The notes beneath the pieces were generated by a model. The model searched no databases. It worked only from the letters and a program-made list of their open reading frames with translations, and was not told the origin of the DNA. DNA of 45,311 bases from a virus, in IMG/VR virus record IMGVR_UViG_3300031857_000377, positions 1 through 45,311 of that record, one strand, 5' to 3'. Below, in pieces: positions 25,568 to 45,020 of this stretch. The position numbers and the translations under genes were made by a program. The stretch's first letter is position 1. Each line of letters begins with the position of its first letter.

Positions 25568-26746
25568 TTATCTTGTAACTTTAAAATAATAATTGTTATC
25601 AAAAAATGTAACAACATCACCACCATCTGTTTCAACTTTAACAACAACTCTATAAAATCTTTCAGGTTGAAAACTATTCATCCAAATATTAAAATAATTT
25701 CCAGTTGAATCACAACTAATTTTTGTCCCAATATTATCGAATGGAAGTATTATTTCATCAGTATGTGCATCTCTAATTTCATAATAAGAAGATGATGGTA
25801 GATAATAATTTACATTGTAATACGATTCAGTAGAATAAGTTTTTGTTGGATATAATTTATTGGCATGTATTCTAATTTTTGCCTTTTCATTTTGAGAATA
25901 GAATTTTTTTAATTTTAAATTTAAATTTACGCCATATTCTGGAATTAAATTTAAACTTCCGGTAGAAAATTCACTGTCATCCCAAACAACATATAATTTA
26001 GGAACATATATTGTATTACTATCAGTTCCAAAAAATTTTAAACTTGTGCTAGAATCCGCAGATGTTTCTACATCATTTGAAAATTTTAATATAAATCCAT
26101 CATTTTCAATTCTTGTAGATCCAGTTATCCATCTCTTTGCAATGTCAGTAACATTCATATAAACATCTGATGTTTGATAATAGAAAGATTGTGTGCATTC
26201 TAAGTTATCATAATCCCACCATGTTCCACCACCTTCATTTGTATTATATGATGATGTAACTCTAATTGATATACGATTTCCCCAAATTGCATCATCTTGA
26301 ATCCAAGTCTGTGATATTTCATCCCACTCTAAACTTGATAAAGTTGGTGGAATATCCCACATTATACCAACATTTTTTGAAGTTCTATATGTCCATGATA
26401 CACCATCGGTAGTTATAGGTTTATTGTAAAACCTTCCTGTTCCATTTATCCAAGAGGAACTTACCGGATAAGCATAAATTTTATATTCTTGTGGAATTTC
26501 TCTAGCATCAACAGTTTTTAGTGAAAGGTAATAGTTTGCATTTTGTGATATTTTTCCAGAATTTACTTTCTGTTCTATTTCATCCATATCAAATTTCATC
26601 AATATTCTGCTGTTGTATATTTTTGCAGAACCGGATGAACCTTCATATAAATGTGATAACTCCACAAGTTGATCTAAACCTGTATTTTGATGTTCTGTTT
26701 TTTCATATATTGTTGCATCTTTTTGTGCATATATTGTATAAATCAT
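25568..26746 (-). CDS. DNRLRE-like baseplate-associated protein
   Basis: The 392-residue product starts with IYTIYAQKDATIYE, then NTGLDQLVELSHL and SRILMKFDM, the pattern of DNRLRE/CBM96-like beta-sandwich modules in which a short strand is followed by a repeated R-x-L-x-K-F-D. Later parts (WDDSEFSTGSLN, FYRVVVKVETDGG) also look beta-sheet. It overlaps the gp6-like stop as ATGA and precedes the coiled-coil gene, so it most likely belongs to the baseplate wedge or rim. The domain call is by eye; a carbohydrate-binding function would be speculative. Confidence 0.6.
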   Translation of the reverse strand: MIYTIYAQKDATIYEKTEHQNTGLDQLVELSHLYEGSSGSAKIYNSRILMKFDMDEIEQKVNSGKISQNANYYLSLKTVDAREIPQEYKIYAYPVSSSWINGTGRFYNKPITTDGVSWTYRTSKNVGIMWDIPPTLSSLEWDEISQTWIQDDAIWGNRISIRVTSSYNTNEGGGTWWDYDNLECTQSFYYQTSDVYMNVTDIAKRWITGSTRIENDGFILKFSNDVETSADSSTSLKFFGTDSNTIYVPKLYVVWDDSEFSTGSLNLIPEYGVNLNLKLKKFYSQNEKAKIRIHANKLYPTKTYSTESYYNVNYYLPSSSYYEIRDAHTDEIILPFDNIGTKISCDSTGNYFNIWMNSFQPERFYRVVVKVETDGGDVVTFFDNNYYFKVTR

Positions 26747-28635
26747 CCGAATGCCCTCACTCTACCTATAATATCATTTTGCGGGTATTTTATTTCAAAT
26801 ATAGAAGGATCTAAAGATGGAAATATTATTCCATCTTTTGTAGCAGCACCAATATCGTATGCATGTTGGGAATAACCAAGTGTTTGATCGTATTTATTTA
26901 CAATTTTAACATTAACAACTGTTTGAACACCTTCTACTTTATCTAATTCTGTAAATATATTACTAATTACTATCGGTTGATTTATTTGCCATCTTCTAAT
27001 ATCAAAATAATTGGAAATTCTATCAATACATCTTAAAATAACTTGGTTACTATTTTGATTTGGTATAGTCATTATATCAAATTCAACACCAATGTTTATT
27101 ACGTATGCATCTCTAATGTTTATAGCATCCGTTAAAATTCTATGATAATTTAAATATGTTTTTAAATTTTCTTTTGTAGCATCATTTACAGTAGTTAATC
27201 TTTGATCACCGTCATAACCCAAAACATAAAAATTTAAAGCCAATCCATTTTGAACACGATCACTATTATACACCGATTCTCTTGTCAATTGTGTATCCTT
27301 TGTAATATATGCCTTTGCAAGAGAACCATATCTGGAAGGCATACTGTATGCCCGTATTATGTAATCCTCTTTTGTAACAGCACGATTTTGTGAAGCAAAA
27401 TAAGCAAGAGCATTTTCTCTAATTTCATTTGCAGTTTCTTCACTCTTTGCACCTTTTGCTGGTTCTGGATTAGTAACAGCAAGACTTGATATAACTTGTT
27501 CATATAAAACTGGATCCAAACCTGTTTCGTCAATTAATAATATTTTACTTATTATTCTTGTTAATGTATCACTACTAACATTGTCTGATAAACCATTACC
27601 CGTTGTATAAAAAACACTTAATGTTGTGTTGTTTGGTGCAAGTCCATAAGTTTTTGTGTATAAAAAGTTTGAAGGATCTATATCAAAAGATGTTGATCTA
27701 TCTATACCAACAAGTGAACTACCAACCAAATCAGGATTTGGAATCAATTCTTCATCATCAAGGTCAGAAACACCCGCACCAAAATTTATTTCATATCTAG
27801 TATCATCTATCTGCCTTGTAGAAAATCTTCTAGCAACTTTTTTTAATTTTAATAGATACGGAGTTTCATCTCTATATGTGCTCAATTGTCTATCGTTTCT
27901 TGGTATATTTAAAACTGGTTCAAATATCGTATCTTGTGCTAAAAATGGAACATGATACCAAACATTATTATCCGAATCAACTGCATACAAAACTTCTATT
28001 AAATTTGCTTCTTCTAAAATTACACTATCATATGGTTTTGGATCTGCAAAATCATAATCTATTTGTTGAATTGTTCCTGAAGATGCTCTTACTGATTTTT
28101 TTAATAAAAAGAATAATACTTCACCGTTATTATCTACCTCAAACGGAGTAACTTCTGTTGGATCAATTGAACTACTAAATTTAAAATCAACATAATCTAT
28201 TGTTCTAAATTCAACATTAGATGTTAAATCAGTATTACCAACAACCATATCTGGTTCAATTGCAAATGCATAGTTGTAATCAGGAACAATAGTATCGCCA
28301 ACTTGAATAGATGGAACTATCTGAAAAACATCTAATTTTACATTTGAAGCAATTTTCCCCTTTGGTCTATATCCTAGTGATTGTGCTATATTTAATATGT
28401 TTGGTTTTTCTGTTGCATGTAATATCATAGATTCTTGCAATGTAACATCGGTGTAATACGATAAAACATCACCAACATAAGCAGCCATTTCCATGAACAT
28501 CATTCCGGGAGATGCTTCATTAAAATCTTGATATGTATTTGGAAAATAATTTTTTGTAAAATCTATAAGATTTTGCTTCAATGAAGAAAAATCCCTTGAC
28601 AAATATCTTATATCTTTTTTAACTAAATCAGCCAT
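26743..28635 (-). CDS. Baseplate wedge protein, gp6-like (Baseplate_J family)
   Basis: At 630 residues it is close to T4 gp6 (660). The N-terminal block SRDFSSLKQNLIDFTKNYFP, FNEASPGMMFMEMAAYVGDV and LSYYTDVTLQESML-like sequence is characteristic of gp6/J-type wedge proteins in T4-like phages. The C-terminal part (AVTKEDYIIRAYSMPSRYG, VEFDIMTIPNQNS) continues the Baseplate_J pattern. In T4, gp6 dimers form the ring that ties the wedges together. It overlaps the gp25-like gene by 8 bp; gp25 and gp6 interact in T4, so the pairing supports both calls. Confidence 0.9.
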   Translation of the reverse strand: MADLVKKDIRYLSRDFSSLKQNLIDFTKNYFPNTYQDFNEASPGMMFMEMAAYVGDVLSYYTDVTLQESMILHATEKPNILNIAQSLGYRPKGKIASNVKLDVFQIVPSIQVGDTIVPDYNYAFAIEPDMVVGNTDLTSNVEFRTIDYVDFKFSSSIDPTEVTPFEVDNNGEVLFFLLKKSVRASSGTIQQIDYDFADPKPYDSVILEEANLIEVLYAVDSDNNVWYHVPFLAQDTIFEPVLNIPRNDRQLSTYRDETPYLLKLKKVARRFSTRQIDDTRYEINFGAGVSDLDDEELIPNPDLVGSSLVGIDRSTSFDIDPSNFLYTKTYGLAPNNTTLSVFYTTGNGLSDNVSSDTLTRIISKILLIDETGLDPVLYEQVISSLAVTNPEPAKGAKSEETANEIRENALAYFASQNRAVTKEDYIIRAYSMPSRYGSLAKAYITKDTQLTRESVYNSDRVQNGLALNFYVLGYDGDQRLTTVNDATKENLKTYLNYHRILTDAINIRDAYVINIGVEFDIMTIPNQNSNQVILRCIDRISNYFDIRRWQINQPIVISNIFTELDKVEGVQTVVNVKIVNKYDQTLGYSQHAYDIGAATKDGIIFPSLDPSIFEIKYPQNDIIGRVRAFG

Positions 28636-29119
28636 TATTTAACGCCTCTGTGATGTTTAAGTTACCGGTTTCATCTATAAATATCTGAATTGGTAAATAT
28701 ATGCCAGTATCTACTATTTGCACAACTAATGATATTTTTATCGAGTGGTCTCTTTCGTCTTCCTGTTCATCTGCCAAACCCGCATCCAATCTGCTAACAA
28801 CCAAATACGGCATCCATTCTGTTATTGATGAACGAATTTCATTTTTCAATGAATCAAAAAATTCTTCTTCTGTTGATATATTTTCAAACAATAGAGTTCG
28901 TATATCTGTTCCAAATGTTGGCAACATATATCGTTCACCCTTTGCCGTTAATAATAAATTTTTTAAGTTTGAATAAACCTGTTCTTCATTTGTATATCCC
29001 AATTTAAAAATACCTTTTGGGTTATTAAATGGCAATAAAACACCTAGTGGTTTCGCATACTTTAAGTTTGTAGCGTTTTCACTATTTGGAATTACCTTTT
29101 TTCTTCTAAAATAAGACAA
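28628..29119 (-). CDS. Baseplate wedge protein, gp25-like (TTG start)
   Basis: A 163-residue GPW/gp25-family protein. Residues 35-150 show the family pattern: GYTNEEQVYSNLKNLLLTAKG, ERYMLPTFGTDIRTLLFE, then an amphipathic helix, SRLDAGL and strands to the end. In T4, gp25 (132 residues) primes sheath assembly and contacts gp6. The only reasonable start is TTG at 29119, preceded by a very strong GGGAG site 8 nt away that overlaps the upstream gene's stop; no ATG is available before the conserved core. The N-terminal extension is basic (RRKK). Confidence 0.9.
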   Translation of the reverse strand: MSYFRRKKVIPNSENATNLKYAKPLGVLLPFNNPKGIFKLGYTNEEQVYSNLKNLLLTAKGERYMLPTFGTDIRTLLFENISTEEEFFDSLKNEIRSSITEWMPYLVVSRLDAGLADEQEDERDHSIKISLVVQIVDTGIYLPIQIFIDETGNLNITEALNNG

Positions 29120-29122
29120 GTT

Positions 29123-29551
29123 TTATCTCCCTTTCTTTTCTTCTATTTTTTTCATAAGAGCAGAATAATCTTTTGTTAATGCAGACATAACTTCATTTGG
29201 TATCTCTGATTTAGAATATCCTTGTGGAATAGGTGTATTATTTCTATCATAACCAAATCCTTCAGCCATATCGGAAGTAAATCTAAATTCATCTTCTACA
29301 TCATAACTTTCTTGTAAACTTCTTTTTGTTTCTTCGAGCAATTCTTGTATTGAACCAAATTCAGTTTTTTGTGTTTTTGTTTTAACAACTTTTTTTGGAG
29401 TTTGAGTTTCATTATACATAGAAAGACCATGTTTCAAAGTAGAAATATCATCTTTTTTTGTTTGTTTTTGTGTCAATTTTTTATTGAGAGCATATTCAAT
29501 TTCTTCTCTTATTATTGACCGTATTTCTTGTAAAAACTTTTTTGAATCCAT
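29123..29551 (-). CDS. Small helical protein of unknown function next to gp25
   Basis: A 142-residue charged protein. The N-terminal helix SKKFLQEIRSIIREEIEYAL and the heptad-like middle (SIQELLEETKRSLQESYD) suggest a coiled coil or docking helix. No enzyme motif, signal or membrane segment is present. Its stop overlaps the ribosome binding site of the gp25-like gene, so the two are probably coupled; a baseplate assembly role is inferred. A TATTTATA element lies 34 nt before the start. Confidence 0.62.
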   Translation of the reverse strand: MDSKKFLQEIRSIIREEIEYALNKKLTQKQTKKDDISTLKHGLSMYNETQTPKKVVKTKTQKTEFGSIQELLEETKRSLQESYDVEDEFRFTSDMAEGFGYDRNNTPIPQGYSKSEIPNEVMSALTKDYSALMKKIEEKKGR

Positions 29552-29611: not shown

Positions 29612-30256
29612 CTACCAAACTATGGCATTTGGAAATCCTGTATATCTAGGTGGAACAATAACTTTATTGTTTATTATTAAAGATGTAGATGATCCACTAT
29701 CCAAAAATACAGCATGTTTAACATTTCCCAAATCATAAACTTTATTTCTCGGTATTATGTAATCTGTTGGTTTGGCGTAAATATAAATAAAAAATGTACC
29801 ATCATAAAATGTCCCCACTATTGTTCTTCTGGCTGGTTTTTTAGGTGGATACATTCTATCTTTAGATCCATTCAATATGGCAACCGGAGTTACCGAAACT
29901 ATGTATCTAGCATTAGTTGGTAATGCCGGTCTATTTTTTACAACATGAAATTGATTGTTTTCTATGTATGCAATATGTGGGATAGTTCCTTTGCCTATTT
30001 TGTAAAGAGGATCGTAATATTTATCGTCTTTATATGGTCCAACCCACCAAGGATAATGGTAATCAAAAAATGAACAATTTATACCATTTTTCTTACCAGA
30101 TAGTCTAATAAGTTCAGGTAAAGAAACTAAATTTAATTTTTTATCTATTTTTGATTTGTTATCATTTGGGACATCAGGTGCAAAGAACTTAATATCTTTT
30201 ACTTTTAGTTTAACTAAATACTCTGTGCCAGGAACTAGTTCTATTACACCATCCAT
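29612..30256 (-). CDS. Stand-alone phosphodiester glycosidase-like (NAGPA) protein
   Basis: The 214-residue protein is a diverged copy of the last domain of the 1388-residue protein encoded just upstream. Shared features are NGINCSFF, the ARYIVSV segment, GTFYDGTFFIYIY and the closing FLDSGSSTSLIINNK with PPRYTGFPNAIVW. These match the NAGPA/phosphodiester glycosidase family, whose D-G-G-S-T loop is part of the active site; here the loop reads DSGSST (D186), one glycine replaced by serine. The family hydrolyses sugar phosphodiesters, so a wall or capsule glycan substrate is plausible but unproven. ATG 30256 follows a GGGAA site. Confidence 0.72.
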   Translation of the reverse strand: MDGVIELVPGTEYLVKLKVKDIKFFAPDVPNDNKSKIDKKLNLVSLPELIRLSGKKNGINCSFFDYHYPWWVGPYKDDKYYDPLYKIGKGTIPHIAYIENNQFHVVKNRPALPTNARYIVSVTPVAILNGSKDRMYPPKKPARRTIVGTFYDGTFFIYIYAKPTDYIIPRNKVYDLGNVKHAVFLDSGSSTSLIINNKVIVPPRYTGFPNAIVW

Positions 30257-30299: not shown

Positions 30300-33200
30300 T
30301 CATCTCCAGACTAAAAAGTTTGGAAATTTATCATATCTTGGTTTTACAACAGTTTCGCCATTATAGTATAAACAAGTAGATCCTCCACTATCTAAAAATG
30401 CAGAATCTTTTATTCCTGGTAATTTTAATAATCTTTCAACTGCCTGATGTCTTGTTATCTTACCTTCTTCTTCCCAAATGTATACAAACATATTGCCATC
30501 ATCCATATTTCCTATTATACTCCATGCTCGTTTATCACCTCCAGTTGAAGTTATATTTTGTGAATTAGTATTTGTTGCTCTAACTTTTACAGAAAATACA
30601 TACTTTGCATCACCAGGAACTGCTAAATATTTTTGAGTTGCTATTTTAAAATTATTATTAGTATCAATATATGCATAATAACCAACATCCTTTGATTTAG
30701 GTTCTCTCTTGTAAGCAGGTACACCATCTTTTTCCACATATGTTACAGTATCATTTTTAAATGGTGGAATATAATAAACACCAAATTTATTATTAGTATT
30801 ACGTTCAAAATATGAACAATTTACACCATTAAGTGCATTTGCAGCTTGTAAAAATTGTTCTGGTTCATACATCTCTTTACCAATTACTGATGGTGGACCA
30901 TTCAACGGTAATGTTACCAAATTTACTTTTGAAGGACTTATTTTTACAAAATATTCTCCTGGACCTATTTTTATTGTATCGTTTACTGGTTGAGGTGCAG
31001 TGTTTACTCCATTATTTACAGTATTATTTTGTTTTGGAATATTATTACTGGTACCAGCCATTAAACCAAGACCATTGCTAAGAGGACCAGGATATAAAAA
31101 GTATTTTTCACCTTTACATATAGTTTTTAATCTATTATTCATTCCTTTATTTTTTTTATGTGTAAATATTCCATTTACAGCGTTTGCTCCTAATAAAAAA
31201 TAATCAGAAGCTTTTGTTCCAAATCCATCTGTTTTATTACTTTTACCTCTTGTTTTGTAAAAATTCTTAGCAGTACCTGCACCTAAAAGATGTGATACCG
31301 CTAACAAACCTGCAATTTTATCACATCTCATTTTATTTAGATCTTCTTTTGAAATTGCATTTTTTCCAGATTGAAGATATTTGTAATTTATTTGAATGTA
31401 TTCTTGCATACCAATTTCTTGTGCAATAGGACATTGTAAATATTGTGTTAAACTTCCAATTTTTAATTTTGACAATCTTTTATTATTCCAAACTTTTTTT
31501 GATTTCCAATTTTTTCCAGTAGTAAAAGTGTCTAATAATGCAGAATATCTTCCAAATTGGTATCTTCCTGCATAATTATTAGAATCACCACCGATTATAT
31601 TATATTTAGATGTTGATTCTGATGCAGCCAGTGCTGCAATAAGATTTGCAATTTGAGCAGGAGTTAATCCACCTCTACAATTATTTAAAGTTTCTTTGTC
31701 CATTACATTTGTAGTTGCCTGTGTGCTTATTCCTGGTATACATACTGTGCTCTTTAAGTTATATTTTTCTCGCAATTGTTTACAATTTTCTTTACTAACT
31801 TCTTCCATATCTGAAGGATTGGTATAATCTTGTGAAATATATTCTGGTTCTGTTGTTTCACCATCTAATTTTGTATCATCCTCTCGTTCTGCAGAATTTG
31901 CAGTAGAACATATATTAACATTAGTAATATATGGTAATAATTTTTCATAGTATGAAGAATTTATCTTTTCAGATAATCTCTTATCAGTTTTTGATTTATC
32001 AACATTTTTTCCATATTTTGTAAAAATTGGAGTTGTAAACAATTTATTAGATAAACCTGCAGATTCTCTATAAGTTTCTGGTTTAGGTCCGCTTTTAACT
32101 TTAGCAACTATAACTGATCCATTAACATATGTATTTGCCATTGCTTTTGCAAATTTAGCAAAATTTGTGACTTTTACAGCAATATGATTTCCAGGTTTAA
32201 CACTTGAATCGCCATCTGGAATATCAGTATTTCCACCAATAGTAACTATTGTTCCATTTTCGTCCATATAAAGTAAAACATCGGTATAACATAATGTTGA
32301 ATTGGATGCGTGGTGTGGAATGGCAGAAATTGTTGCCATTGACCATTTTAGATTATTGTTTATATGATTTACCAATCTTTTACCCTTATCGGTTAATGTT
32401 CCATTTCTATTTATATGATAACCGATAATAAAAATTGCTATTGTTGAATCTTCTTTTTCTTCTATATGTTCTTCTGAGTTTGAATATTTTGGATCTAACC
32501 AAATTTTACTAGGTTTAAATATTCTATTTTTTACACCAAGTTCTTTCATCTCAGACCAAGGCATAACTTTATCTCCAGGATGATTTACAAGTCTTCCTCT
32601 AGAAATTATAGATCTATGATAAAAGTCAATATTTGTTCCAAGTTTTTCTTGTAAAGTAAATGCAGAATTTTTTAAGCAATGTTCTGCAAATATACCAGAC
32701 CATCTTGGATAATTTGCCCAAGAAGAATCTGGAACTTTATTTAATGCATCACTATCGTTTAATCCTCTACCTATTGCTAATTTTCCCTTATTTATTATTT
32801 CCGATTCTAATATTGTCATGTGTAGTTCATTTTCAGATTCGTATATGTATCTTATGTTATTATTCATAACACCGGATTGATAAGAGTTTAAAACTATTGG
32901 AACATCTATTGGTGAATTTATTGTAGGAATACCATCCAATAATTTTTTCCAATCACCTTTTACTTTTGGTTCATTATCTGGATTTTTTTCATCTTTTGGA
33001 GGTTTCCAATACGGAATTACTGCAGAAATTAATTCTATACCTTTATCTGAAATAGTTGTTTCAAATTTTTCATAACCATAATTTGGACCAGAGTTTAAAC
33101 GGTATGCCCAATATCTATTATACCAAGGTCCACTTTTTTTAACCATATTTTCTAAAGTATCAGGATAACTAACTATTCGTTCCGATGAAGTATTTACTGG

Positions 33201-34466
33201 TTTAGTTTCTGGTTTTTTTGTTGAACCAGCAAAACCAAAATTAACAGTTTGATTTTTTTGAATAGTTTCAGATTTAATTTCGTTTATATCAGTAATATCT
33301 AATGTAACACCAGGACCGTTTTCTCTTTGCATCCAAAACTTTTTTTCACTTTTTATTTTTTGAGCTTCTTCTGGTAGTGCTTTTATTATTATTGGTGTTG
33401 CGCCTATACCAGTTATAGAATATGTTTTTAATCTAGCTTCTAACTCTTTCTGTGCTCTATCCGATGCTCCCATGAGACCATCTTCTAAACCAGTTTTTAC
33501 ATCTGTATCTTTTATTTTTTCAGTATAGGTTATAGGCAATATGTAATATCTATGATTATATTTATTAGAACTAAATTGTGGTTTTTCATTTTTTGTAGGT
33601 GGAGGTGCATCTGTTTTTATGTTACCTGCATTAGCAGCGGTTGCATTTGATTTTCTAACAGCAGGTCTTTTTTCATTTGTTTCACATTTATCAGATTGAC
33701 TAGTTACTGGACCCTTTGACTTTGTTTCTTCTGTTTTTACAGATAATGAATTATTTAATTGACCTTCCAATATATTACCAAATTCAGATTTTTTAGATAC
33801 ATCTGGATTTGCCTTTGTATTTGAAGATGGTGTTTGTATATTTATTTTTGCACTACCATCTTTACTAACAATAACATTATTTTTTATCCAATTTGCAGTA
33901 GCAGTTACAGTTCCAGCATGATTGCCATTATGTGGAACATTATTGGATGTTGGTAATAATGATTCAAATTCTTTAACAATTTTTAATAATTGTCCATCAC
34001 CGTTTTTTGTATTACCATTTCTTGTAGAGTGAACATAAACAAATTTTGATGAAATTGGTTTTCCATTATTGTCTTTTGTTGTTAATTTTTCTATTAGTCC
34101 TTTATTTGAATTGTAATTTCCTTTGTAAGATGGAATTGCTGCACCTGAACTGAAAACTAAATCCCATTTATCTTTTTGATAAATGTTGTTTAGATATTCA
34201 GCTCCTAATGAATATCCAACAAGTATTTTTTTTGATGGATTTATACCTTTTGATTTTAATATAGATTTACATTCTTCCCAAGCTTCAGAAACTTTTCCAT
34301 CTTGTGTTCTGTTAATATTATAGATGTTAAAATCAGTTAAATTATTAAACCCAAATGTTTTAATATATTCTCCTGGTTTTTTTCCATTAATATCCATACC
34401 ACCTATAATAAAAATAAGTGGAGCATTTTTGCTTACTTTTGATTCTATAAATTCACCAAATGCCAT
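30300..34466 (-). CDS. Four-domain tail-associated enzyme: alpha/beta hydrolase, DUF2272-like, lysozyme-like transglycosylase, NAGPA-like
   Basis: A 1388-residue modular protein. Residues 1-200: alpha/beta-hydrolase-like, with the nucleophile elbow GYSLGAE (S86) and a late His (H179 or H183). Residues 575-770: resembles DUF2272 (PRWSGIFAEHC, CYTDVLLYMDENG, IVTIGGNTD), a family found in phage lysins. Residues 930-1080: lysozyme/transglycosylase-like, with ALAASES (E950 candidate) and NNYAGRYQFGRYSALLD. Residues 1160-1388: NAGPA-like phosphodiester glycosidase (FLDSGGSTCLYYNGE, D1359). Low-complexity Ser/Thr/Lys/Pro linkers separate them. It follows the spike and CHAP-like genes, so it probably sits at the tail tip and opens the cell envelope during infection. 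Individual domain calls range from fair to good; the combined role is inferred. Confidence 0.75.
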   Translation of the reverse strand: MAFGEFIESKVSKNAPLIFIIGGMDINGKKPGEYIKTFGFNNLTDFNIYNINRTQDGKVSEAWEECKSILKSKGINPSKKILVGYSLGAEYLNNIYQKDKWDLVFSSGAAIPSYKGNYNSNKGLIEKLTTKDNNGKPISSKFVYVHSTRNGNTKNGDGQLLKIVKEFESLLPTSNNVPHNGNHAGTVTATANWIKNNVIVSKDGSAKINIQTPSSNTKANPDVSKKSEFGNILEGQLNNSLSVKTEETKSKGPVTSQSDKCETNEKRPAVRKSNATAANAGNIKTDAPPPTKNEKPQFSSNKYNHRYYILPITYTEKIKDTDVKTGLEDGLMGASDRAQKELEARLKTYSITGIGATPIIIKALPEEAQKIKSEKKFWMQRENGPGVTLDITDINEIKSETIQKNQTVNFGFAGSTKKPETKPVNTSSERIVSYPDTLENMVKKSGPWYNRYWAYRLNSGPNYGYEKFETTISDKGIELISAVIPYWKPPKDEKNPDNEPKVKGDWKKLLDGIPTINSPIDVPIVLNSYQSGVMNNNIRYIYESENELHMTILESEIINKGKLAIGRGLNDSDALNKVPDSSWANYPRWSGIFAEHCLKNSAFTLQEKLGTNIDFYHRSIISRGRLVNHPGDKVMPWSEMKELGVKNRIFKPSKIWLDPKYSNSEEHIEEKEDSTIAIFIIGYHINRNGTLTDKGKRLVNHINNNLKWSMATISAIPHHASNSTLCYTDVLLYMDENGTIVTIGGNTDIPDGDSSVKPGNHIAVKVTNFAKFAKAMANTYVNGSVIVAKVKSGPKPETYRESAGLSNKLFTTPIFTKYGKNVDKSKTDKRLSEKINSSYYEKLLPYITNVNICSTANSAEREDDTKLDGETTEPEYISQDYTNPSDMEEVSKENCKQLREKYNLKSTVCIPGISTQATTNVMDKETLNNCRGGLTPAQIANLIAALAASESTSKYNIIGGDSNNYAGRYQFGRYSALLDTFTTGKNWKSKKVWNNKRLSKLKIGSLTQYLQCPIAQEIGMQEYIQINYKYLQSGKNAISKEDLNKMRCDKIAGLLAVSHLLGAGTAKNFYKTRGKSNKTDGFGTKASDYFLLGANAVNGIFTHKKNKGMNNRLKTICKGEKYFLYPGPLSNGLGLMAGTSNNIPKQNNTVNNGVNTAPQPVNDTIKIGPGEYFVKISPSKVNLVTLPLNGPPSVIGKEMYEPEQFLQAANALNGVNCSYFERNTNNKFGVYYIPPFKNDTVTYVEKDGVPAYKREPKSKDVGYYAYIDTNNNFKIATQKYLAVPGDAKYVFSVKVRATNTNSQNITSTGGDKRAWSIIGNMDDGNMFVYIWEEEGKITRHQAVERLLKLPGIKDSAFLDSGGSTCLYYNGETVVKPRYDKFPNFLVWR

Positions 34467-34485: not shown

Positions 34486-36000
34486 TTAATCTGTTTCAAG
34501 ATCAATATCAGCACCTTTTTTACCAGTTGGGTTGTAAAATCCACCCAATAAAGATTTTAATTCTATTAGAGGATTTTCCGGTCTTGAAACCTTTTCTGTC
34601 CATTCTAAATTTGTACTTATAGAAGGATTAATAAATAGTTCGTGCCATATTGATTTTGTTGGAAATGGCGGTGCTATTTTACTTGCAGGTGATATTTTAT
34701 TGCCAACGCCACACTTATTATGATAACCACCCGATTTTGATGCATAGTAACTCGATCTAGAATAATATTTTATATGACAATCATTTCCAGCATTTCCTTC
34801 TATTGTTACTATACCTTTATCTTCTGTTACATATAATACTATACCAGCATGACCACAATTTTTCGGATCTGTTTGGGATCTAAAAAATATACTGCCAACA
34901 GTTGGTTCCCATGAAACATTATAGTTAAATGTTCTAGCATTTAAAGTTGCAACTGTTTCAGATCTAGCATGTTTTTTGAATGGAATCCTAGATGGGTTGT
35001 CCTTGTATTTATTTAAACAGACAATATTGCCCTCATTCTTAACATCTGTGTGTTTAACTTTTAAACTTGCCATAGCAAACATATAAATGACACTAACAAG
35101 TTCAGCACACCAATGTGTAGTTATTGTGCTTCCTTTAATACCTTTTATTTTAGATGCATCCGATAATTCTGCACCAGCAAATAGTTTTTTTAGTCTAACT
35201 ATTGGAGAAAAACCCTTTACATCAGAATGCATACCAAATGATGGATCGTTTGGGTATTCGTATTTAGCATAAAATGGATCACCACCGGGTTTACTTTCTA
35301 TTTTTTCCCATTTTCTTTTTCTACTACCACTCTTTTCTTTATCAGATGTAGGTTGCCACTTCAACATATCAATTGCAACCCATAATATTTCTTTTTGTAA
35401 ATCATTTAATCCAGTTGAATCTGGATCAGTACAATTTAATTTTTTTTCTTGTAATTCTTTATCAATATTTTGTTCTGGATTATCAAATGTTTCATCTGAA
35501 ATAAATTGTTCGTCAGTAGAACAATGTTCTCCTTGCTTCAAACCATTACCGGCATTTCTATTTTTTGATGCATCCTCCGCATTTTCTAATGGTTTATCTG
35601 GTTTATCTGGAATATTTTCTTCCTTTCCATCTTTTATATCACTCGTATCTACACCACGTTTTGTTTCATCTTTTTGGTAATCCGAATCAAAACCAGTATC
35701 TTTTTCACTATCTGTATCATCCACGTTTGAGTCTACTTCTTCAGTTTCTTCTGTTTTTGAACCATCTTCTTCTGTTTTTATCTTTGTAGTAACAGTTCCA
35801 TTTGGAGTATTCGTTACACTTACACCAGTTTGTTTTTGTGTATTTTGTTTTTGTTCATCTGCTTTTTTATCGGCTTCTATTTTTTTAGCACGTTCTGTTT
35901 GTTTTGCTTCTCTCAATTTTTTAAAGTTTAAACGTTCTAATTCTTTTTCGCTCAATTCTTCATCAATATTTTCCATTTCGGTTATTATTATACCAGACAT
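34486..36000 (-). CDS. CHAP/NlpC-like peptidase with long charged N-terminus
   Basis: The start is ATG 36000, preceded by TTTGGAG, the same ribosome binding site used by the upstream structural gene; an ATG at 36018 overlapping that gene's stop would add six residues. Of 504 residues, the first 190 are charged, repetitive and probably disordered. The C-terminal part has the cysteine-peptidase pattern THWCAELVS (C298), then WEPTVGSIFF, NCGHAGIVLYV (H384) and TIEGNAG (N403), matching CHAP amidase/endopeptidases that cut peptidoglycan peptides. Placed between spike-type genes and the four-domain enzyme, it is likely a virion-associated or endolysin-like peptidoglycan hydrolase. No holin is apparent beside it. 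Confidence 0.78.
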   Translation of the reverse strand: MSGIIITEMENIDEELSEKELERLNFKKLREAKQTERAKKIEADKKADEQKQNTQKQTGVSVTNTPNGTVTTKIKTEEDGSKTEETEEVDSNVDDTDSEKDTGFDSDYQKDETKRGVDTSDIKDGKEENIPDKPDKPLENAEDASKNRNAGNGLKQGEHCSTDEQFISDETFDNPEQNIDKELQEKKLNCTDPDSTGLNDLQKEILWVAIDMLKWQPTSDKEKSGSRKRKWEKIESKPGGDPFYAKYEYPNDPSFGMHSDVKGFSPIVRLKKLFAGAELSDASKIKGIKGSTITTHWCAELVSVIYMFAMASLKVKHTDVKNEGNIVCLNKYKDNPSRIPFKKHARSETVATLNARTFNYNVSWEPTVGSIFFRSQTDPKNCGHAGIVLYVTEDKGIVTIEGNAGNDCHIKYYSRSSYYASKSGGYHNKCGVGNKISPASKIAPPFPTKSIWHELFINPSISTNLEWTEKVSRPENPLIELKSLLGGFYNPTGKKGADIDLETD

Positions 36001-36017
36001 TTTTATCTCCAAAGACA

Positions 36018-38546
36018 TTAAGCAATAACTTTTATGGTATCATTTAATTGTAATTTAGTTCTAATATTATATTCATCAAGCATTTTTCCGTTTATTTGAT
36101 TGTTTGCAACAAATGATGCCTTTGAATATAATTTTGGCAATTCATTTCCAGTAACAACAAAAGAACTATCAGTTAGATAATTTTTACTAACATTTAATTC
36201 ACCATAAACTGTTATATTAGAATACATATTATCTATTAAATTATTTGATAAATTTATGTTACCATTTATGAAAAGATTTGGTTGTTGTCCTGTATTTGGC
36301 AAGGAATGTAATGATTTTAATTTATTATTAGAAACATCAACATTATTTACAGTAAACATACCTTTTAGTGATTCCAATTGATTATTCATTGCATAATAAG
36401 TTCCATAAACATTACTTGGTCCACCAACTAAATCAACTAAACTATTATTTGAACAATCAAAATTTCCATTTACAGTTTCCGGAGCATTTTCAAGTGATTT
36501 TAAATTCATATTTTTACATATAAAATTACCTAAAACCTTGTGTATCTTTATTGGTATAGAATTTAATAGATTTCCATTTTGATCTTTTTTTCCAGTTAAT
36601 GATATACTGCCATTATAGACGTATGGTGGAGTGAGTTTACCTTGAGCATCTTTTTGAAATAAATTCATATCCAGTTCTAAATAATCTGGAAATGGATTAT
36701 CGGATAAATTTTCGTTTGTTTTTTCATTATCAATTTCAGATAACATATCATCTAAATCTTGCGTCCCAACTTCTTCATATTCAAATCTTTCAACATCATC
36801 GCGTGAATTTTTCATTGAATATGCTGCCTCTAATGCATATTCATATTGATCATCAGTTATTCCGTGTTGTTCTTTATAGTCCTTGATAGTATCAGAATTT
36901 TTTGATTGTTGCATTTCTAATGTTTCAACATGACTGAGTAAAGATTCTGTATAAGATTTTGAAAGTTCATCTAATTTTTTATATTCTTTCAATTTATTAA
37001 TAACTTCTTTGAATTTAGCAACACCACCTTTTTCATCCGTAAATCCCATTGATACTGCCGCCACTTTTTGTATTCTATAATCTAATTTATCAAAATTTTC
37101 TATAAATTTTGTATTACTAGATTCGTCTGTGTTCGTGGATTCAGGATTTGGTTCAGTTACTATTTCATAATTTATTATAGGTTGTTGTGGATCTCTTCCA
37201 GATTTACTAGCTGCATTATCTAAATCTTGTATAAAATCACGAAACACGGTATCATACTTTCTGCTCATTTCTTTTTTTATGTCTCTATTTGTTAGATTTT
37301 GAAAATTAAATCCAGCTTTATTAGGTAAAAAACTAATATTGTTACCTAAATTATTTTTTAAAAATTCAACAAAAGTTTGACCATTTGGTAATTTTAACTC
37401 ATAAATAGAATAAGGTATTCCGTTATATTTAACGATACCATCTTTTGAAATCTCTATACCTTTTTCTTCTATAATTTTTTTTCGTTCTATTGCCTTTTGT
37501 CTCATATCATTTACAGTAGATTTTGTAAATGAATTTTCCCAAAAATTTCTATCATTTGTTGATATTTGATCAAAACTATAAAAATACCCACTTGTTGTTG
37601 GTAATGGTTCTTGTATGTTTGATGTAAATTTTTCAACAACAATTTTTGGATTTCTAACAGGAGGGTGTTCCGGCGGAGCAGCACCTTGTGGACCATCAGG
37701 TCTTAAATTTGGCAAAGTTCCAGTTTGTATTTTTAATAAATCAAATGCATCATATTCAAATAAATATACTATAAGTTCAGGTTTAGTTATACCACCTTTT
37801 ACACCACCATCAGGAATATCACCATCTGATAACTGAAATGATGATTGGAAACTGTCACTTGATATTGTTGGTGTATTTATTATTTTTACAACACTTTCTG
37901 GTTTTGTAAATTTACCCAACATTTTTTCAAATTGTGGTTTTAAATTTGATTGAGCCATTTGTGTTGCTCTTTCTCTTACAGATTTTGAATTTGACATTAA
38001 ATCTACCGATGTTTTTATGGAATCATTTAAAATATCCATGTTTGGTAGAAAATTATTTTCCATAATTTTTTGTTTAACCGTTTCATCTAATTTATCAAAT
38101 TGTGTCATGTCCTTAATATCTGCAAGAATTTTTATGGAATCTTTTGATTTTACCATATTTTCAATTTCTGTTGCATTGATACCAATTTTTGCACCAAGAT
38201 TACTTAACAAATCTTTATTTAATAAATCTTTTGTTAAATTTTTTTCAGTTATTTTATCAAGTAATTGTTTTTTAATTTGTGCAGGATTTGTAATATCTAT
38301 TCCAGATAATGATATTCCATCTGTAATTTCATTTATAGAACCCAATTTATTGGTATCTACACCCAATGAAGAAGCAATTGTTGATAACTTTACATCACCT
38401 AAATCTGATAATGACAAATTTTTATACTTTTCTTTAACATCATCCAAAACACCTGATGTGTTTTTTATATTTGATAATACATTTTCTTTTTCTTTTTCAA
38501 TAGTAGAACCAACTACACCTTTAAACATACTTTTTATATCTGCCAT
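36018..38546 (-). CDS. Hub-associated structural protein with C-terminal leucine-rich-repeat-like domain
   Basis: An 842-residue protein. The first 230 residues are helical with many Ile/Leu/Lys repeats; residues 240-420 are mixed and unassigned (PELIVYLFEYDAFDLLKIQT); residues 650-830 hold irregular leucine-rich-like repeats (NFICKNMNLKSLENAP, NFDCSNNSLVDLVGGP, NVDVSNNKLKSLHSLP). The same repeat type ends the neighbouring gp5-like protein, suggesting that the two pair or arose by domain shuffling. Repeats of this cysteine-asparagine type occur in other environmental phages. ATG 38546 follows TTTGGAG. The T4 counterpart is not recognised. Confidence 0.65.
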   Translation of the reverse strand: MADIKSMFKGVVGSTIEKEKENVLSNIKNTSGVLDDVKEKYKNLSLSDLGDVKLSTIASSLGVDTNKLGSINEITDGISLSGIDITNPAQIKKQLLDKITEKNLTKDLLNKDLLSNLGAKIGINATEIENMVKSKDSIKILADIKDMTQFDKLDETVKQKIMENNFLPNMDILNDSIKTSVDLMSNSKSVRERATQMAQSNLKPQFEKMLGKFTKPESVVKIINTPTISSDSFQSSFQLSDGDIPDGGVKGGITKPELIVYLFEYDAFDLLKIQTGTLPNLRPDGPQGAAPPEHPPVRNPKIVVEKFTSNIQEPLPTTSGYFYSFDQISTNDRNFWENSFTKSTVNDMRQKAIERKKIIEEKGIEISKDGIVKYNGIPYSIYELKLPNGQTFVEFLKNNLGNNISFLPNKAGFNFQNLTNRDIKKEMSRKYDTVFRDFIQDLDNAASKSGRDPQQPIINYEIVTEPNPESTNTDESSNTKFIENFDKLDYRIQKVAAVSMGFTDEKGGVAKFKEVINKLKEYKKLDELSKSYTESLLSHVETLEMQQSKNSDTIKDYKEQHGITDDQYEYALEAAYSMKNSRDDVERFEYEEVGTQDLDDMLSEIDNEKTNENLSDNPFPDYLELDMNLFQKDAQGKLTPPYVYNGSISLTGKKDQNGNLLNSIPIKIHKVLGNFICKNMNLKSLENAPETVNGNFDCSNNSLVDLVGGPSNVYGTYYAMNNQLESLKGMFTVNNVDVSNNKLKSLHSLPNTGQQPNLFINGNINLSNNLIDNMYSNITVYGELNVSKNYLTDSSFVVTGNELPKLYSKASFVANNQINGKMLDEYNIRTKLQLNDTIKVIA

Positions 38547-38572: not shown

Positions 38573-40816
38573 TTAAGGTAAACCTAAAACTTTTAAATTT
38601 CCATCGGAAGTTCCATCCCAATTTTCCTGTATCCATTTATGGTCAAGTGGTTTTTTGGATACTTGATCGGATATACTTACACTATTTGTTATATTTAAAA
38701 CTGGTGTTTCTCGTTTAATAACTTCATTAGTTAAATTACAAGATTGTATAAATAAATTACCTATCGTTTTACTTTCTCTCAATCCTTTTAAAGATGTAAG
38801 TTGTTTATTTTGATCAACTCTATATGTTTCTATATTACTTATTGGACCACCAACAAGATTTCTTAAATTATTGTTTGTTGCAGAAAATTCTATATTTACT
38901 ATTTTTGGTCCACCTTCCAAAGAAACTAATCCTGAGAAATCAACTTTATATCTATCAGCAACTTCAGGACCATCTATTAAATTATCTAAATTATTAACAG
39001 ATGCATCAAAATCTATAACACTATATGGTGAGTTTTTCAAGGAAATTAAATTCATATTTGAACAATTAAATTTACCACCAACTTTACCAAATGGAACAGG
39101 AATTTCTGTTAGTTTATCAACACCAGGAATTTTTGAGTTCCTTAAATCAATATCGCCTTCATAATTTAAGTTTCCTTCTTCATCAAAACTCACCAAATCT
39201 ATATCACCAATTCCCAATTGTCTAAATGTTATACCATTTGGATAATTTGAATTTTTACTATCAGGTATTATTGTATCTAATGTAAAATCAGTTAGTTCCT
39301 CACTAGTTTGTTCATCAACTGGAGTTTCTTCTACATTTACTTCTGGAATTTCTCCATCATTTAAATCACTATTAATTTCTTCCAAGTCTTCCAATATTTT
39401 CTTTTTTTGTTTTTCTATATCATCTATTTTTGCAGTAAGAGTAACAACATTAGTTGGATCTGCAACAACTTTTTCCGTTTGTGGTAAATAGTCACTTGTG
39501 GCCATCAAGTCTTGGTCTGAAGGCATTGGTTTTACATATCCTTCATTATTTTTACTTCTATCTTTTGCCTCAGCAGCTGCATCTGATTTTGGACCACCAC
39601 CCTTTTCATTTACAAAAACCAAATCACTTGGTAATTTTTTTATTTTTGATCTTAAACTTTTTACTTTTCCTTGTAATGATGTAAATGCACCGGCATTTAT
39701 TGGAGGACCAGTTGGTCCTGTATTAGATGTATGAGTCTCTTGTGCAATGTGTCCTAATGCTGAATAAAACAAATCACATAAATCTGCTAACCAATTCATA
39801 GTAACATCACCAAGTAAAACAGGATGAACGGCATTTACACCCAAATTTACTCTCGATGATTCAACTTCTATAACATCTTTACCGTCTATAGCGATACCTT
39901 TCATAGATGAAAGACCAATACCTTCAGCTGAAAATATTGCTGTCTCTTGTTTTTTTGAATTTAATATTAATCTATCAGATGAAATTATTATTTGATTTCC
40001 GGCAAATTCATTTTTATTATGTAAATCTACTGATCTATTTTTAGCAGATGGTGTAAATTCACTTCCAGGTGTAAATTTAACTGCCTGACCAGATGTCATC
40101 CATATTGTAGAATCATCTTTATCAATTTCTTCTTGTATAAAATCATTGAATGGTTTATCGGTAGGGTTAGTCCCATTGGATATAATTAGTATTGGATTAC
40201 CAACTGCACCCAATCCATTTTTCCAATGTGGTTTTATTGGATAATTTCTAGTTTCATCTATGGTTGATCCCAATCGTATAGAATTACCAAATCTCCCCTC
40301 AACTATTACATCTCCAGGATAAGGTTGAATTGGGTATACATCTATTCTTTCACCAAATTTTGGATCTATAGTTTCTTTTACTTGCAATCTGTCTTTTACT
40401 TTATTTGCAATTCCATCCGAGGCATTGTCTCTAGTGTTTTTATCTCTGCCATCAGCACCGTCAGGTAGAAATGATGTTATTCCAGGAATACCATTGTGAT
40501 GAACAGAACTTTGTATGGAAACTGGATTGGTATAGTAATATTCTTTTGATGGTCTACCTGCACTATTATATGCAGTTGGACCTTTTGTTATGAAAACAAC
40601 TTCGCCTATTATAGGAATATTTTTAATATTAGCATCAAGTGGTCTTGCATTTACAACATCACGTGTTGCTTGAGATCCATATGGTGCTAACATTTTACAG
40701 GTAACGGAATATAACTTTTCTCTATTTTCGCCAAAATAATCAACATCAACTACTTCAGCAGCAACTAGTTCATATTCAAAACCATCAATTATTGTTTTTT
40801 GGTAATTCAGTCCCAA
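38573..40816 (-). CDS. Baseplate hub spike, gp5/VgrG-like, with leucine-rich-repeat-like C-terminus
   Basis: A 747-residue protein if the TTG at 40816 is the start (GGAAGAAG site upstream; the next in-frame ATG falls 41 codons in, past conserved sequence). Residues 15-100 look like an OB fold (KNIPIIGEVVFITKG); residues 165-185 read PGDVIVEGRFGNSIRLGST, a segment typical of T4-like gp5 hubs; residues 270-340 are short strands (DRLILNSKKQET, IAIDGKDVIEVES) like a beta-helical needle; residues 545-700 are leucine-rich-like repeats (KFNCSNMNLISLKNSP). T4 gp5 carries a lysozyme domain; none is visible here, while separate hydrolase genes follow. It overlaps the preceding gene by 32 bp. Confidence 0.75.
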   Translation of the reverse strand: MGLNYQKTIIDGFEYELVAAEVVDVDYFGENREKLYSVTCKMLAPYGSQATRDVVNARPLDANIKNIPIIGEVVFITKGPTAYNSAGRPSKEYYYTNPVSIQSSVHHNGIPGITSFLPDGADGRDKNTRDNASDGIANKVKDRLQVKETIDPKFGERIDVYPIQPYPGDVIVEGRFGNSIRLGSTIDETRNYPIKPHWKNGLGAVGNPILIISNGTNPTDKPFNDFIQEEIDKDDSTIWMTSGQAVKFTPGSEFTPSAKNRSVDLHNKNEFAGNQIIISSDRLILNSKKQETAIFSAEGIGLSSMKGIAIDGKDVIEVESSRVNLGVNAVHPVLLGDVTMNWLADLCDLFYSALGHIAQETHTSNTGPTGPPINAGAFTSLQGKVKSLRSKIKKLPSDLVFVNEKGGGPKSDAAAEAKDRSKNNEGYVKPMPSDQDLMATSDYLPQTEKVVADPTNVVTLTAKIDDIEKQKKKILEDLEEINSDLNDGEIPEVNVEETPVDEQTSEELTDFTLDTIIPDSKNSNYPNGITFRQLGIGDIDLVSFDEEGNLNYEGDIDLRNSKIPGVDKLTEIPVPFGKVGGKFNCSNMNLISLKNSPYSVIDFDASVNNLDNLIDGPEVADRYKVDFSGLVSLEGGPKIVNIEFSATNNNLRNLVGGPISNIETYRVDQNKQLTSLKGLRESKTIGNLFIQSCNLTNEVIKRETPVLNITNSVSISDQVSKKPLDHKWIQENWDGTSDGNLKVLGLP

Positions 40817-42268: not shown

Positions 42269-42928
42269 TCAACCCCTCGTATGTTTTGGTGGAATAATTG
42301 CATCAATTACACCCATATCCAATGCATCTTTTGGTGTGATATAATAATCTTTAATTGTTACATTTTTCCAATACTCTTTGTCTTTGTTTGAGTTTGATTT
42401 CAGTATTTCCAATAGTATTTCTTCTAACTTCTCCATATGTTGAACGTTGGCTTTCATATCAGAAGATTTGCCATAAATATCAGAACTAATTTCGTGAAAC
42501 ATTATAGTGCTATATTGAGACGCTGCACGAATTCCTGTTCCAGCACATAGAATCAGAGCAGCAGCAGACATTGCTCTTCCTCTACAAATTGTATTTACTT
42601 TTACATCAAGACTTTGAATATAATCAATGATACCAAGTGCCTCATATACCGAACCACCATCAGAATTGATAATTAAATTGATTGGATCATTCTTATTTTC
42701 ATCTTTTCTCATATGCAATATTGCACGAATACGGGTAATTATATCATATAAACTACCATCCATTATCTCACCGAACAACAGAACAGAAGATGCTTCAACA
42801 TCAATTCCATAATCCATTTGTGTTGTTGCTTCTTTCCATCTAACTGGAATATCATTTTCACTTTCTTTTGATTTATTGTTCACTATTTTGTCTTCAACAA
42901 CTTCTTCGCCATCATAAAAATCGTTCAT
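42269..42928 (-). CDS. ClpP-like serine protease
   Basis: A 219-residue member of the ClpP/crotonase fold. Core features are VLLFGEI, INLIINSDGGSVYEALGI, the nucleophile motif GRAMSAAALIL (S121), the histidine in STIMFHEI (H145), and the closing YITPKDALDMGVIDAII. ClpP-type enzymes cut proteins after unfolding by an ATPase partner; no ClpX-like gene is in the window. In some phages a ClpP-like enzyme is the prohead protease, but no capsid genes are next to it here, so its substrate is uncertain. ATG 42928 follows an AGGAG site. Confidence 0.88.
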   Translation of the reverse strand: MNDFYDGEEVVEDKIVNNKSKESENDIPVRWKEATTQMDYGIDVEASSVLLFGEIMDGSLYDIITRIRAILHMRKDENKNDPINLIINSDGGSVYEALGIIDYIQSLDVKVNTICRGRAMSAAALILCAGTGIRAASQYSTIMFHEISSDIYGKSSDMKANVQHMEKLEEILLEILKSNSNKDKEYWKNVTIKDYYITPKDALDMGVIDAIIPPKHTRG

Positions 42929-44114: not shown

Positions 44115-45020
44115 TTAGATGCCGTATTCCGTTAGGTATCGTTTGAGGGCTAATTCTTTGGCTTTACACTCCAACATAATATCAACATCATGTCCGTATG
44201 TATTGATTTTTTCCAATATGTAATCAGCGTGTGCCTGTGGTTTTTCTTTCGGATTGCCAGTCTCTTTTAGTCTTGATGATGAATAGTGAACAACAGGAGT
44301 TATACTTTCTGACCATGTTGAAATGGCAAGTTCAAGGGCTTGTTGTTCTGATAAGTCACCTGTGCAGAATTGGTGGTGGTGATAGTCGAATACGATAGGA
44401 ATACCAACACATTCGTGAATACGCATAAGGTCTTTGACTGAATACATACTGGCTTTGTCATCATTTTCGATAGTCATTCTTGAACGAACACTATGGGATA
44501 ATAAGTTAAAGTTACGGCACCAACGGTCAAGTGATGCAATTTTATCACCGTAAACACCATTACAATGTATATTGATTTTGTTGTAAGGTGTATGTGACAA
44601 CCCCATCATATCGAATACTTTACCATGTAATTCTAAATCAATAATTGTATTCTTTACAACATTTTCATTTGGTGAACATAGAACATTGAAAGGACCAGGA
44701 TGACATGATAAACGAATACCATGTTCATTTGCATAGTCACCAATTCTTTTGAGAACTATTTTTATTTCATCAATATCTGGTAGAGTTTCCAAGTCATATT
44801 CAGAACCCCAAGGAAACACATTTGATGATGTTCGGAATAAATAAATATCATTCTCAACATTCCATTTGAGTATGGTTTCCATATCTTTAACATTTAGGAG
44901 GGCAAGTTCGGAACAATAATTGATACCTTTTTGTAGAAAGGTTTTTTTAATCATTGAACGATTGGTAGTAATCTTATCTTTTGATAAGGTCATATTGATG
45001 CAGGCATAACCGAGTTTCAT
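44115..45020 (-). CDS. uvdE: UV-damage endonuclease, UvdE/UVDE family
   Basis: The 301-residue protein matches UV-damage endonucleases, which nick DNA 5' of photodimers and other distorting lesions. It is a metal-dependent TIM barrel. Visible family motifs are GYACIN near the start, FRTSSNVFPWGS (63-73), SCHPGPFNVLCSP (H107), IENDDK (E185) with S194 nearby, GIPIVFDYHHH (D212, H214-216), VVHYSSSR (H245), HADY (H264) and MLEC (E284). These include the likely metal ligands, so the enzyme should be active. Length is close to the bacterial form. ATG 45020 has no Shine-Dalgarno site. It would repair phage DNA, a job done in T4 by the unrelated endonuclease V (denV). Confidence 0.95.
   Translation of the reverse strand: MKLGYACINMTLSKDKITTNRSMIKKTFLQKGINYCSELALLNVKDMETILKWNVENDIYLFRTSSNVFPWGSEYDLETLPDIDEIKIVLKRIGDYANEHGIRLSCHPGPFNVLCSPNENVVKNTIIDLELHGKVFDMMGLSHTPYNKINIHCNGVYGDKIASLDRWCRNFNLLSHSVRSRMTIENDDKASMYSVKDLMRIHECVGIPIVFDYHHHQFCTGDLSEQQALELAISTWSESITPVVHYSSSRLKETGNPKEKPQAHADYILEKINTYGHDVDIMLECKAKELALKRYLTEYGI

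Follow-up and report, generated by a model that had tools for sequence, protein, structure and literature searches.

The 45,311-nucleotide stretch of viral DNA analyzed here (the window) encodes a 1388-amino acid protein, P0001, that is probably a baseplate-located, virion-associated envelope-degrading protein in which exchangeable enzymes are mounted on a dead papain-like core. Domain identities, the conservation of catalytic residues in the alpha/beta-hydrolase (ABH) and lysozyme domains, the DSGGST motif, the loss of the catalytic dyad from the core, the swapping of modules, and the conserved genomic slot were all obtained by computation. The features discussed below are the following.

26743..28635 (-), gp6-like baseplate wedge (phrog_219/10646)
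28628..29119 (-), gp25-like baseplate wedge (phrog_261/43)
29123..29551 (-), 142-aa conserved slot neighbor (synteny)
29612..30256 (-), P0002, 214-aa stand-alone NAGPA paralogue (identity to the P0001 C terminus)
30300..34466 (-), P0001, 1388-aa multi-enzyme slot protein (ORF, layout common to L001, L002, and L010, purifying selection)
30303..30980 (-), P0001 residues 1163–1388, NAGPA-like phosphodiester glycosidase domain with DSGGST (Pfam, PDB profile, Foldseek)
31107..31694 (-), P0001 residues 925–1120, tail-lysozyme domain with E950 (phrog_27932, tblastn, invariant E950)
31947..33179 (-), P0001 residues 430–840, conserved core with a papain/NlpC-CHAP-like part (HMM, residue table, AF2, Foldseek)
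33183..33530 (-), P0001 residues ∼313–428, ∼115-aa insert (alignments, low-confidence model)
33867..34466 (-), P0001 residues 1–200, esterase-like ABH domain with S86, D157, and H183 (AF2, Foldseek PDB, triad)
34486..36018 (-), 510-aa protein with a C-terminal CHAP domain (Pfam CHAP 7.6e-5, just below the cut-off)
36018..38546 (-), 842-aa protein with leucine-rich-like repeats in the baseplate module (synteny)
38573..40816 (-), 747-aa gp5/spike-like baseplate protein (weak match to phrog_4011, baseplate protein; synteny, homologue in Mel-JY01)

P0001 and its genomic slot

The first-pass annotation was exact in the reading frame, strand, and length of P0001 and in the positions of its motifs (GYSLGAE, residues 84–90; E950; DSGGST, residues 1359–1364). 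The linkers that it placed between the domains are present at residues ∼201–300, 841–924, and 1121–1162; residues 212–290 are of low confidence in the AF2 model and probably disordered. An identical domain layout, in each case as one ORF from another sample, is found in L001 (97%) and L002 (83%), and dN/dS across the domains is 0.08–0.37, far under 1 throughout. Because of this shared layout and selection, P0001 is, as judged from its sequence, a real gene and no chance fusion. The probability that assembly or gene calling joined unrelated genes is negligible; the protein was first seen on a single 45-kb fragment, but independent contigs, among them L010 from yet another sample with a single ORF, refute this explanation. 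In alignments, the ∼115-residue insert occurs only in P0001, L001, and L002 and is missing from L010. Neither a phmmer search with the whole protein nor profiles built from three of its parts (ABH, lysozyme, and core) gave anything useful against PDB sequences, and in the cultured-phage collection P0001 had no good match outside the lysozyme region.

P0001 had been described as a tail-module protein, and synteny indeed places its gene within a baseplate module. The slot between the spike-like protein and gp25–gp6 is kept across the gp6-anchored loci that we examined, among them that of the cultured Microcystis phage Mel-JY01, for which we found no paper; this conservation had been missed before. 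From the position of the gene in this module, we infer that P0001 is located in the virion.

The CHAP domain of the 510-residue neighbor is intact, with C304, H390, and N409 invariant. A peptide-cutting step, if any, is more likely to be provided by this adjacent gene, where Cys304 and His390 are kept, than by the core of P0001.

Predicted enzyme domains around the core

Three of the four enzyme-like domains proposed for P0001 hold (ABH, lysozyme, and NAGPA), whereas the DUF2272 assignment is not supported. Residues 1–200, with a pLDDT of mostly 75–92 in the AF2 model, matched solved esterase structures in the PDB (best Foldseek E 4e-4), and the 50 best matches listed are esterases or other hydrolase-fold proteins. 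The G-x-S-x-G elbow and a Ser-Asp-His triad follow in order, and the triad residues are invariant in the relatives (S86 in 16/16, D157 in 16/16, H183 in 15/15); there is no other invariant Ser, Asp, or His among the ABH domains of the 16 relatives. On fold and triad, the domain carrying GYSLGAE is an ABH superfamily member and a predicted esterase.

Residues 925–1120 match phrog_27932, “baseplate hub subunit and tail lysozyme” (E 3.5e-15), and by tblastn this region matches gp5 of Pootjesviridae. E950 and S951 are invariant in the domain alignment, E950 being the putative catalytic glutamate. The lysozyme/transglycosylase-like domain suggested earlier is thus by homology the “tail lysozyme” domain of gp5-type spikes, and P0001 carries a predicted peptidoglycan-degrading domain. 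Homologues of the domain are fused to OB-fold spikes of the gp5/VgrG type: L143 and L162, relatives of the lysozyme domain, carry Phage_base_V or DUF2345. In P0001 neither was found by Pfam, so the domain is unfused to an OB-fold or spike. Foldseek gave no PDB fold match for the lysozyme domain among the 50 listed.

It is highly unlikely that P0001 is a late, endolysin-like lysis protein that stays outside the virion. Several relatives do carry GH24, GH19, or M15 domains, which are often found in endolysins, but in the loci examined the gene lies inside the baseplate module beside gp25–gp6 and a spike-like protein. Moreover, the proteins are ∼1000–1400 residues long with a large non-catalytic core, and the lysozyme domain falls in a tail-lysozyme PHROG.

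The C-terminal domain with DSGGST, previously called NAGPA-like, scores just below the Pfam threshold for NAGPA (PF09992; E 8e-5, 23.3 bits, cut-off 25), and the homologous domain of L010 exceeds it with 29 bits. Searches with a profile of the domain against the PDB also gave matches, and with a low-confidence model the nine best Foldseek matches in the PDB are NAGPA/DUF2233 structures (probability 0.85–0.44). Its assignment as NAGPA-like and as a predicted phosphodiester glycosidase therefore holds at the level of the fold. In the R-[TV]-[IA]-[IV]-G motif, P0001 has a tryptophan where P0002 and L010 have arginine. No NAGPA relatives were found in viral contigs outside the phage group of P0001. 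A second NAGPA gene, P0002, which the first-pass annotation had missed, lies immediately downstream of P0001; it shares 30% identity with the P0001 C terminus (E 8e-21), matches Pfam NAGPA at 3.8e-4, and is kept in L001, L002, and L003.

ABH and NAGPA folds might instead make P0001 a receptor-binding or depolymerase accessory that binds or trims capsule, exopolysaccharide, or LPS and not the cell wall, which we regard as rather unlikely. NAGPA-like and carboxylesterase-like depolymerases have been predicted in Curtobacterium prophages (PMC9862828), and by dN/dS the core evolves more slowly than the NAGPA and lysozyme parts, which in this resemble surface-facing parts. However, the complete architectures that we examined pair ABH with a muralytic module, and this extends to ABH+M15 proteins that lack the core; moreover, the slot is hub-adjacent, outside the fiber region.

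The conserved core and probable loss of its active site

The core HMM matches 44 distinct proteins and spans ∼400 residues; the segment formerly called DUF2272 (residues 570–780) is its C-terminal part. Among the domains of P0001, constraint is strongest on the core (dN/dS 0.083). In the AF2 model, with a pLDDT of mostly 85–96 over residues 590–850, the positions of the catalytic Cys and His are occupied by Ser590, at the start of helix 589–599, and Tyr727, at the start of strand 727–734. Foldseek matched the core to viral NlpC/P60 (probability 0.72) and CHAP (probability 0.44); hhalign of the core against the neighboring CHAP protein gave an E of 0.0012, but a probability of 19%. The model and these matches are moderate evidence that the core is probably papain/NlpC-CHAP-like. 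Because Ser590 and Tyr727 replace the Cys/His pair, it is probably catalytically dead.

Relatives carry varying enzymes around the core (GH24, GH19, VanY/M15, NAGPA, and lysozyme); P0001 belongs to a mosaic family, which had gone unnoticed. W-C-G and H are kept in 18/18 “bare” cores, to which no enzyme is attached. In 23/23 tree members with a C-terminal enzyme the Cys is replaced by Ser or Asp, and at the His position these extended cores have Tyr727 (P0001) or Phe or Arg (others). The previously proposed attack on peptides by P0001 does not fit a core without the pair that its bare relatives keep. On the tree, dyad loss and module gain happen just once, as a single event; their association is therefore not statistically independent, and a correlation statistic was dropped. 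A bare core also matched Bacillus phage KLEB27-3, but over just 87 residues of a protein annotated as hypothetical, and this was judged likely to be chance.

DUF2272 is a papain-like family in which a conserved Ser replaces Cys, which is suggested to be still active, and which keeps the other two active-site residues (PMC10318531). By analogy, all four domains of P0001 could be active, with the core as a serine-type peptidase using Ser590 as nucleophile, so that four bond types would be attacked. In the model, Ser590 does open a helix, as a papain-like nucleophile would. Nevertheless, we consider this quite unlikely: the His expected of DUF2272 is Tyr727 in P0001 and Phe or Arg elsewhere, and other extended members have Asp instead of Ser. 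The DUF2272 profile (PF10030) had no match in the window, nor in the control genomes, and was absent among matches listed at E<=10 for 24 core sequences. DUF2272 is thus not supported as the identity of the core.

We tentatively propose, with somewhat less than even confidence, that a peptidase-fold baseplate domain lost catalysis once, when enzymes became attached, and became a pseudoenzyme chassis swapping esterase, GH24, GH19, VanY/M15, tail lysozyme, and NAGPA to match host envelopes. P0001 would be the variant that joins cleavage of esters, glycans, and sugar phosphodiesters.

Proposed action, known systems, and host

In the preferred mechanism, the core (residues 430–840), having lost Cys and His, would serve as a scaffold or docking part on which flexible linkers hang the N-terminal serine esterase, the gp5-type tail lysozyme/lytic-transglycosylase-like domain, and the C-terminal NAGPA-like domain. 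Tail contraction would deliver these enzymes together with the spike. As to predicted substrates and order of action, the NAGPA-like glycosidase may trim phosphodiester-linked sugars of the surface or wall, the esterase may strip acyl groups (e.g. O-acetyl) that block muramidases, the lysozyme domain may cleave glycan strands, and the CHAP protein encoded upstream may cleave peptides.

Virion-associated lysins usually bear one or two peptidoglycan-cutting domains. They are reviewed in PMC6116005 and PMC5380687; gp61 of phiMR11 and HydH5/phiIPLA88, cited within the latter as two-activity lysins, resemble P0001 as predicted here in that a single structural protein of the tail bears more than one catalytic domain. 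They target peptidoglycan, however, and come from phages of Gram-positive hosts, whereas P0001 adds esterase and NAGPA folds around a probably dead papain-like core. The gp5-type proteins of phrog_27932 (Pootjesviridae OLIVR5, RL2RES, and phiM9) share with P0001 the homologous lysozyme domain, the invariant Glu-Ser, and the baseplate location (by gene position for P0001); there the domain is fused to the spike, whereas in P0001 it is attached to another core, alongside ABH and NAGPA. In the Curtobacterium prophages, the NAGPA fold (6PKU-like) and the carboxylesterase fold occur in separate predicted depolymerases; P0001 joins both, and a tail lysozyme, in one chain. Bacillota TelC-NAGPA(-NlpC/P60) conflict proteins (PMC12419801) likewise pair NAGPA with peptidoglycan-targeting domains, but are cellular, with a lipocone enzyme, and not phage baseplate parts. 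The Mel-JY01 slot protein (WWT39505, GH19-type) occupies the same slot 5′ of gp25–gp6, but is a coreless protein of 343 residues with a single enzyme domain. The novelty claimed for P0001 survives without its DUF2272 member: we found the predicted esterase-, lysozyme/transglycosylase-, and NAGPA-type domains together in one chain in no described phage protein, which the comparison with the cultured-phage collection supports.

One core and one slot with changing enzymes provide a natural combination set for testing which envelope bonds need breaking, and a clean case in which active-site loss coincides with the gain of attached enzymes. Modules of the P0001 family are candidate lysin parts.

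The combination of NAGPA, lysozyme, and esterase hints at phosphodiester-linked sugars in the envelope of the host. The carriers are T4-like metagenomic phages, and their host is probably in Bacteroidota: five of the eight gp6-bearing MAG contigs are labeled Flavobacteriales, Flavobacteriaceae, or Winogradskyella. A related gp6 also occurs in Flavobacterium phage immuto, although the closest cultured relative is listed as a phage of Microcystis rather than of Bacteroidota.

Domain organization of the slot protein

The slot protein P0001 is encoded between a gp5-like spike gene and gp25–gp6 on a linear tailed-phage fragment from IMG/VR, and translation reproduced the coordinates and length assigned in the first-pass annotation exactly.

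30300–34466, − strand: P0001, 1388 aa
29612–30256, − strand: P0002, stand-alone NAGPA paralogue directly downstream of P0001

Intact counterparts occur on contigs from other samples (L001, 97%; L002, 83%; L010, whose protein lacks the insert at ∼313–428), and L003 carries a partial one. Between P0001 and its L002 counterpart, dN/dS is 0.083 for the core (residues 430–840), 0.18 for the α/β-hydrolase domain, 0.31 for the NAGPA domain, and 0.37 for the lysozyme domain. Because these values lie well under 1 in every domain and intact copies exist elsewhere, P0001 is under selection, and an artefactual origin is ruled out. Four enzyme-like domains had been proposed; three (α/β-hydrolase, lysozyme, and NAGPA-like) were recovered, whereas DUF2272 was not, so that the observation is confirmed in part and its interpretation partly supported.

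Residues 1–200 are unnamed by any sequence library. In the AlphaFold model of residues 1–860, this domain mostly shows pLDDT 75–92, and the PDB matches listed by Foldseek are esterases and other α/β-hydrolases. Ser-86 (GYSLG), Asp-157, and His-183 are the sole invariant Ser, Asp, and His among 16 relatives (∼30–80% identity). Fold matches and triad bear out the α/β-hydrolase assignment, and a predicted serine-esterase type is well supported.

The lysozyme/transglycosylase-like domain proposed around Glu-950 also holds: alone, it matched phrog_27932 with E 3.5e-15 (1e-22 for the L010 protein), and Glu-950–Ser-951 is invariant among its relatives. With residues 925–1120, tblastn matched a “baseplate hub subunit and tail lysozyme” of Pootjesviridae, and Foldseek gave no PDB lysozyme fold among the matches listed. 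In L143 and L162, relatives from other phages, the domain is preceded by an OB-fold Phage_base_V domain, and SLT/transglycosylase models give weak matches to small relatives that stand alone.

Pfam NAGPA matched residues 1163–1388 slightly under the cut-off (E 8e-5) and the homologous L010 domain over it. The domain profile found NAGPA as best matches among PDB sequences, and the top nine Foldseek matches, obtained with a low-confidence query model, were NAGPA/DUF2233, in agreement with the suggested NAGPA-like domain carrying DSGGST. In the R-[TV]-[IA]-[IV]-G motif, Arg is kept in P0002 and L010 but replaced by Trp in P0001, whose copy may therefore not be fully active. P0002 keeps this Arg within A-R-R-T-I-V-G but has DSGSST, P0001 combines W-S with DSGGST, and the motifs of the single L010 copy (GRVAIG, DGGGS) are the most canonical. 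Judging from these motifs, P0002 and the P0001 domain may have taken on different roles.

Dyad loss in a probable peptidase-like core

Residues 570–780 had been read as DUF2272-like, but none of the 24 core proteins scanned has DUF2272 among the matches listed. A core HMM, searched against gp6-anchored and core-anchored viral contigs, matched 44 distinct proteins. Moderate evidence points to a papain-like fold of the NlpC/CHAP type. Foldseek against viral models matched NlpC/P60 and CHAP proteins, and hhalign with the neighboring CHAP protein gave an alignment confined to the H..N hairpin (E 0.0012, probability 19%). In the AlphaFold model, Ser-590 opens a helix, Tyr-727 opens a strand, and Asn-746 comes after the following strand.

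According to the residue table, W-C-G and H-[VIT]-E are kept in all 18 tree members without a C-terminal enzyme, whereas W-S or W-D stands in all 23 whose sequence continues for >200 residues beyond the core. These extended members carry Tyr, Phe, or Arg at the His position, except for four that keep His (L012, L013, L014, and L022). The clade difference is clear, yet reflects one event only, as the Cys change is a single change on the maximum-likelihood tree (support 100/99). For the P0001 core, loss of catalytic activity is predicted.

A mosaic family in a conserved baseplate slot

Downstream of P0001 lie gp25-like and gp6-like baseplate wedge genes. The gp6-anchored loci examined share the order 244-aa, 129-aa, spike-like, (leucine-rich-like), (CHAP or other small protein), slot enzyme, 142-aa, gp25, gp6. 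Modules are exchanged within this conserved slot, and the slot enzyme is a mosaic.

Architectures of slot enzymes and relatives (ABH, α/β-hydrolase domain; the GH19 label in L024 and M15 labels in several members are sub-threshold Pfam matches or motifs read by eye)
ABH-core-lysozyme-NAGPA: the window, L001, L002, L010
ABH-GH24 or GH19-core-VanY: L031, L029, L095, L108
ABH-core-M15: L087, L098
Linker-ABH-core-M15-like: L016; L014 and L022 by C-terminal resemblance only
GH19-core: L023, L024
Bare core: slot architecture without attached enzyme
ABH-M15, core absent: L236, L243, L249
GH19-type protein alone: cultured Microcystis phage Mel-JY01

In the three core-less proteins, the ABH domain is joined to one resembling M15/VanY, which indicates that movement of the esterase module does not depend on the core. 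The cultured-phage collection gave no match to the ABH part or the core; the listed L031 matches concern its lysozyme.

In genome collections, gp6 relatives lie mostly in flavobacteria-labelled contigs; gp6 identity is 41% to Flavobacterium phage immuto and 71% to Mel-JY01, filed under Microcystis. The host is likely Gram-negative. The annotation of the immuto slot gene (L089, 16027–17139), “DNA repair ATPase, RecN,” is surprising for a baseplate position and may be erroneous.

Proposed mode of action and neighboring genes

We consider it fairly probable that P0001 is a baseplate-associated lysin whose dead peptidase-like core serves as a chassis for attached enzymes. P0001 would be present in the virion and dock by its core; the esterase, lysozyme, and NAGPA modules would open the envelope close to the spike, their substrates and order of action being putative, and the CHAP protein encoded upstream, with Cys/His intact, would contribute peptide cleavage. 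Virion-associated lysins have been described as large proteins of several functions that carry glycosidase or endopeptidase domains (PMC6116005). Phage depolymerases of NAGPA-like and esterase-like type were predicted as separate proteins (PMC9862828), whereas P0001 unites both in one chain. The claim that no described phage protein has this set agrees with our search of open-access papers and collections, which turned up none, for three enzyme-like domains rather than four. Further work on the finding is warranted chiefly by the mosaic family and by the proposed pseudoenzyme chassis, neither of which figures in the first-pass annotation.

The CHAP protein (34486–36018, 510 aa) has a long, acidic, low-complexity N terminus; its first residues resemble slot-protein N termini in other phages of the group and are possibly a docking peptide. 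The 842-aa (36018–38546) and 747-aa (38573–40816) proteins have leucine-rich-like repeats in common at their C termini; in bare-core relatives such as L077, spike homologues are shorter and show no match to these repeats. Elsewhere, an ORF at 5978–9157 (1059 aa) joins an N-terminal calcineurin-like phosphoesterase to an SMC/RecF-type ATPase; the recombination nuclease subunits SbcD/SbcC (T4 gp47/gp46), which are usually separate, appear to be fused here. A very large ORF (1–5976, − strand; at least 1992 aa) extends past the left end, and a UvdE-type UV endonuclease (44115–45020) and a ClpP-like protease (42269–42928) are encoded near the tail module.
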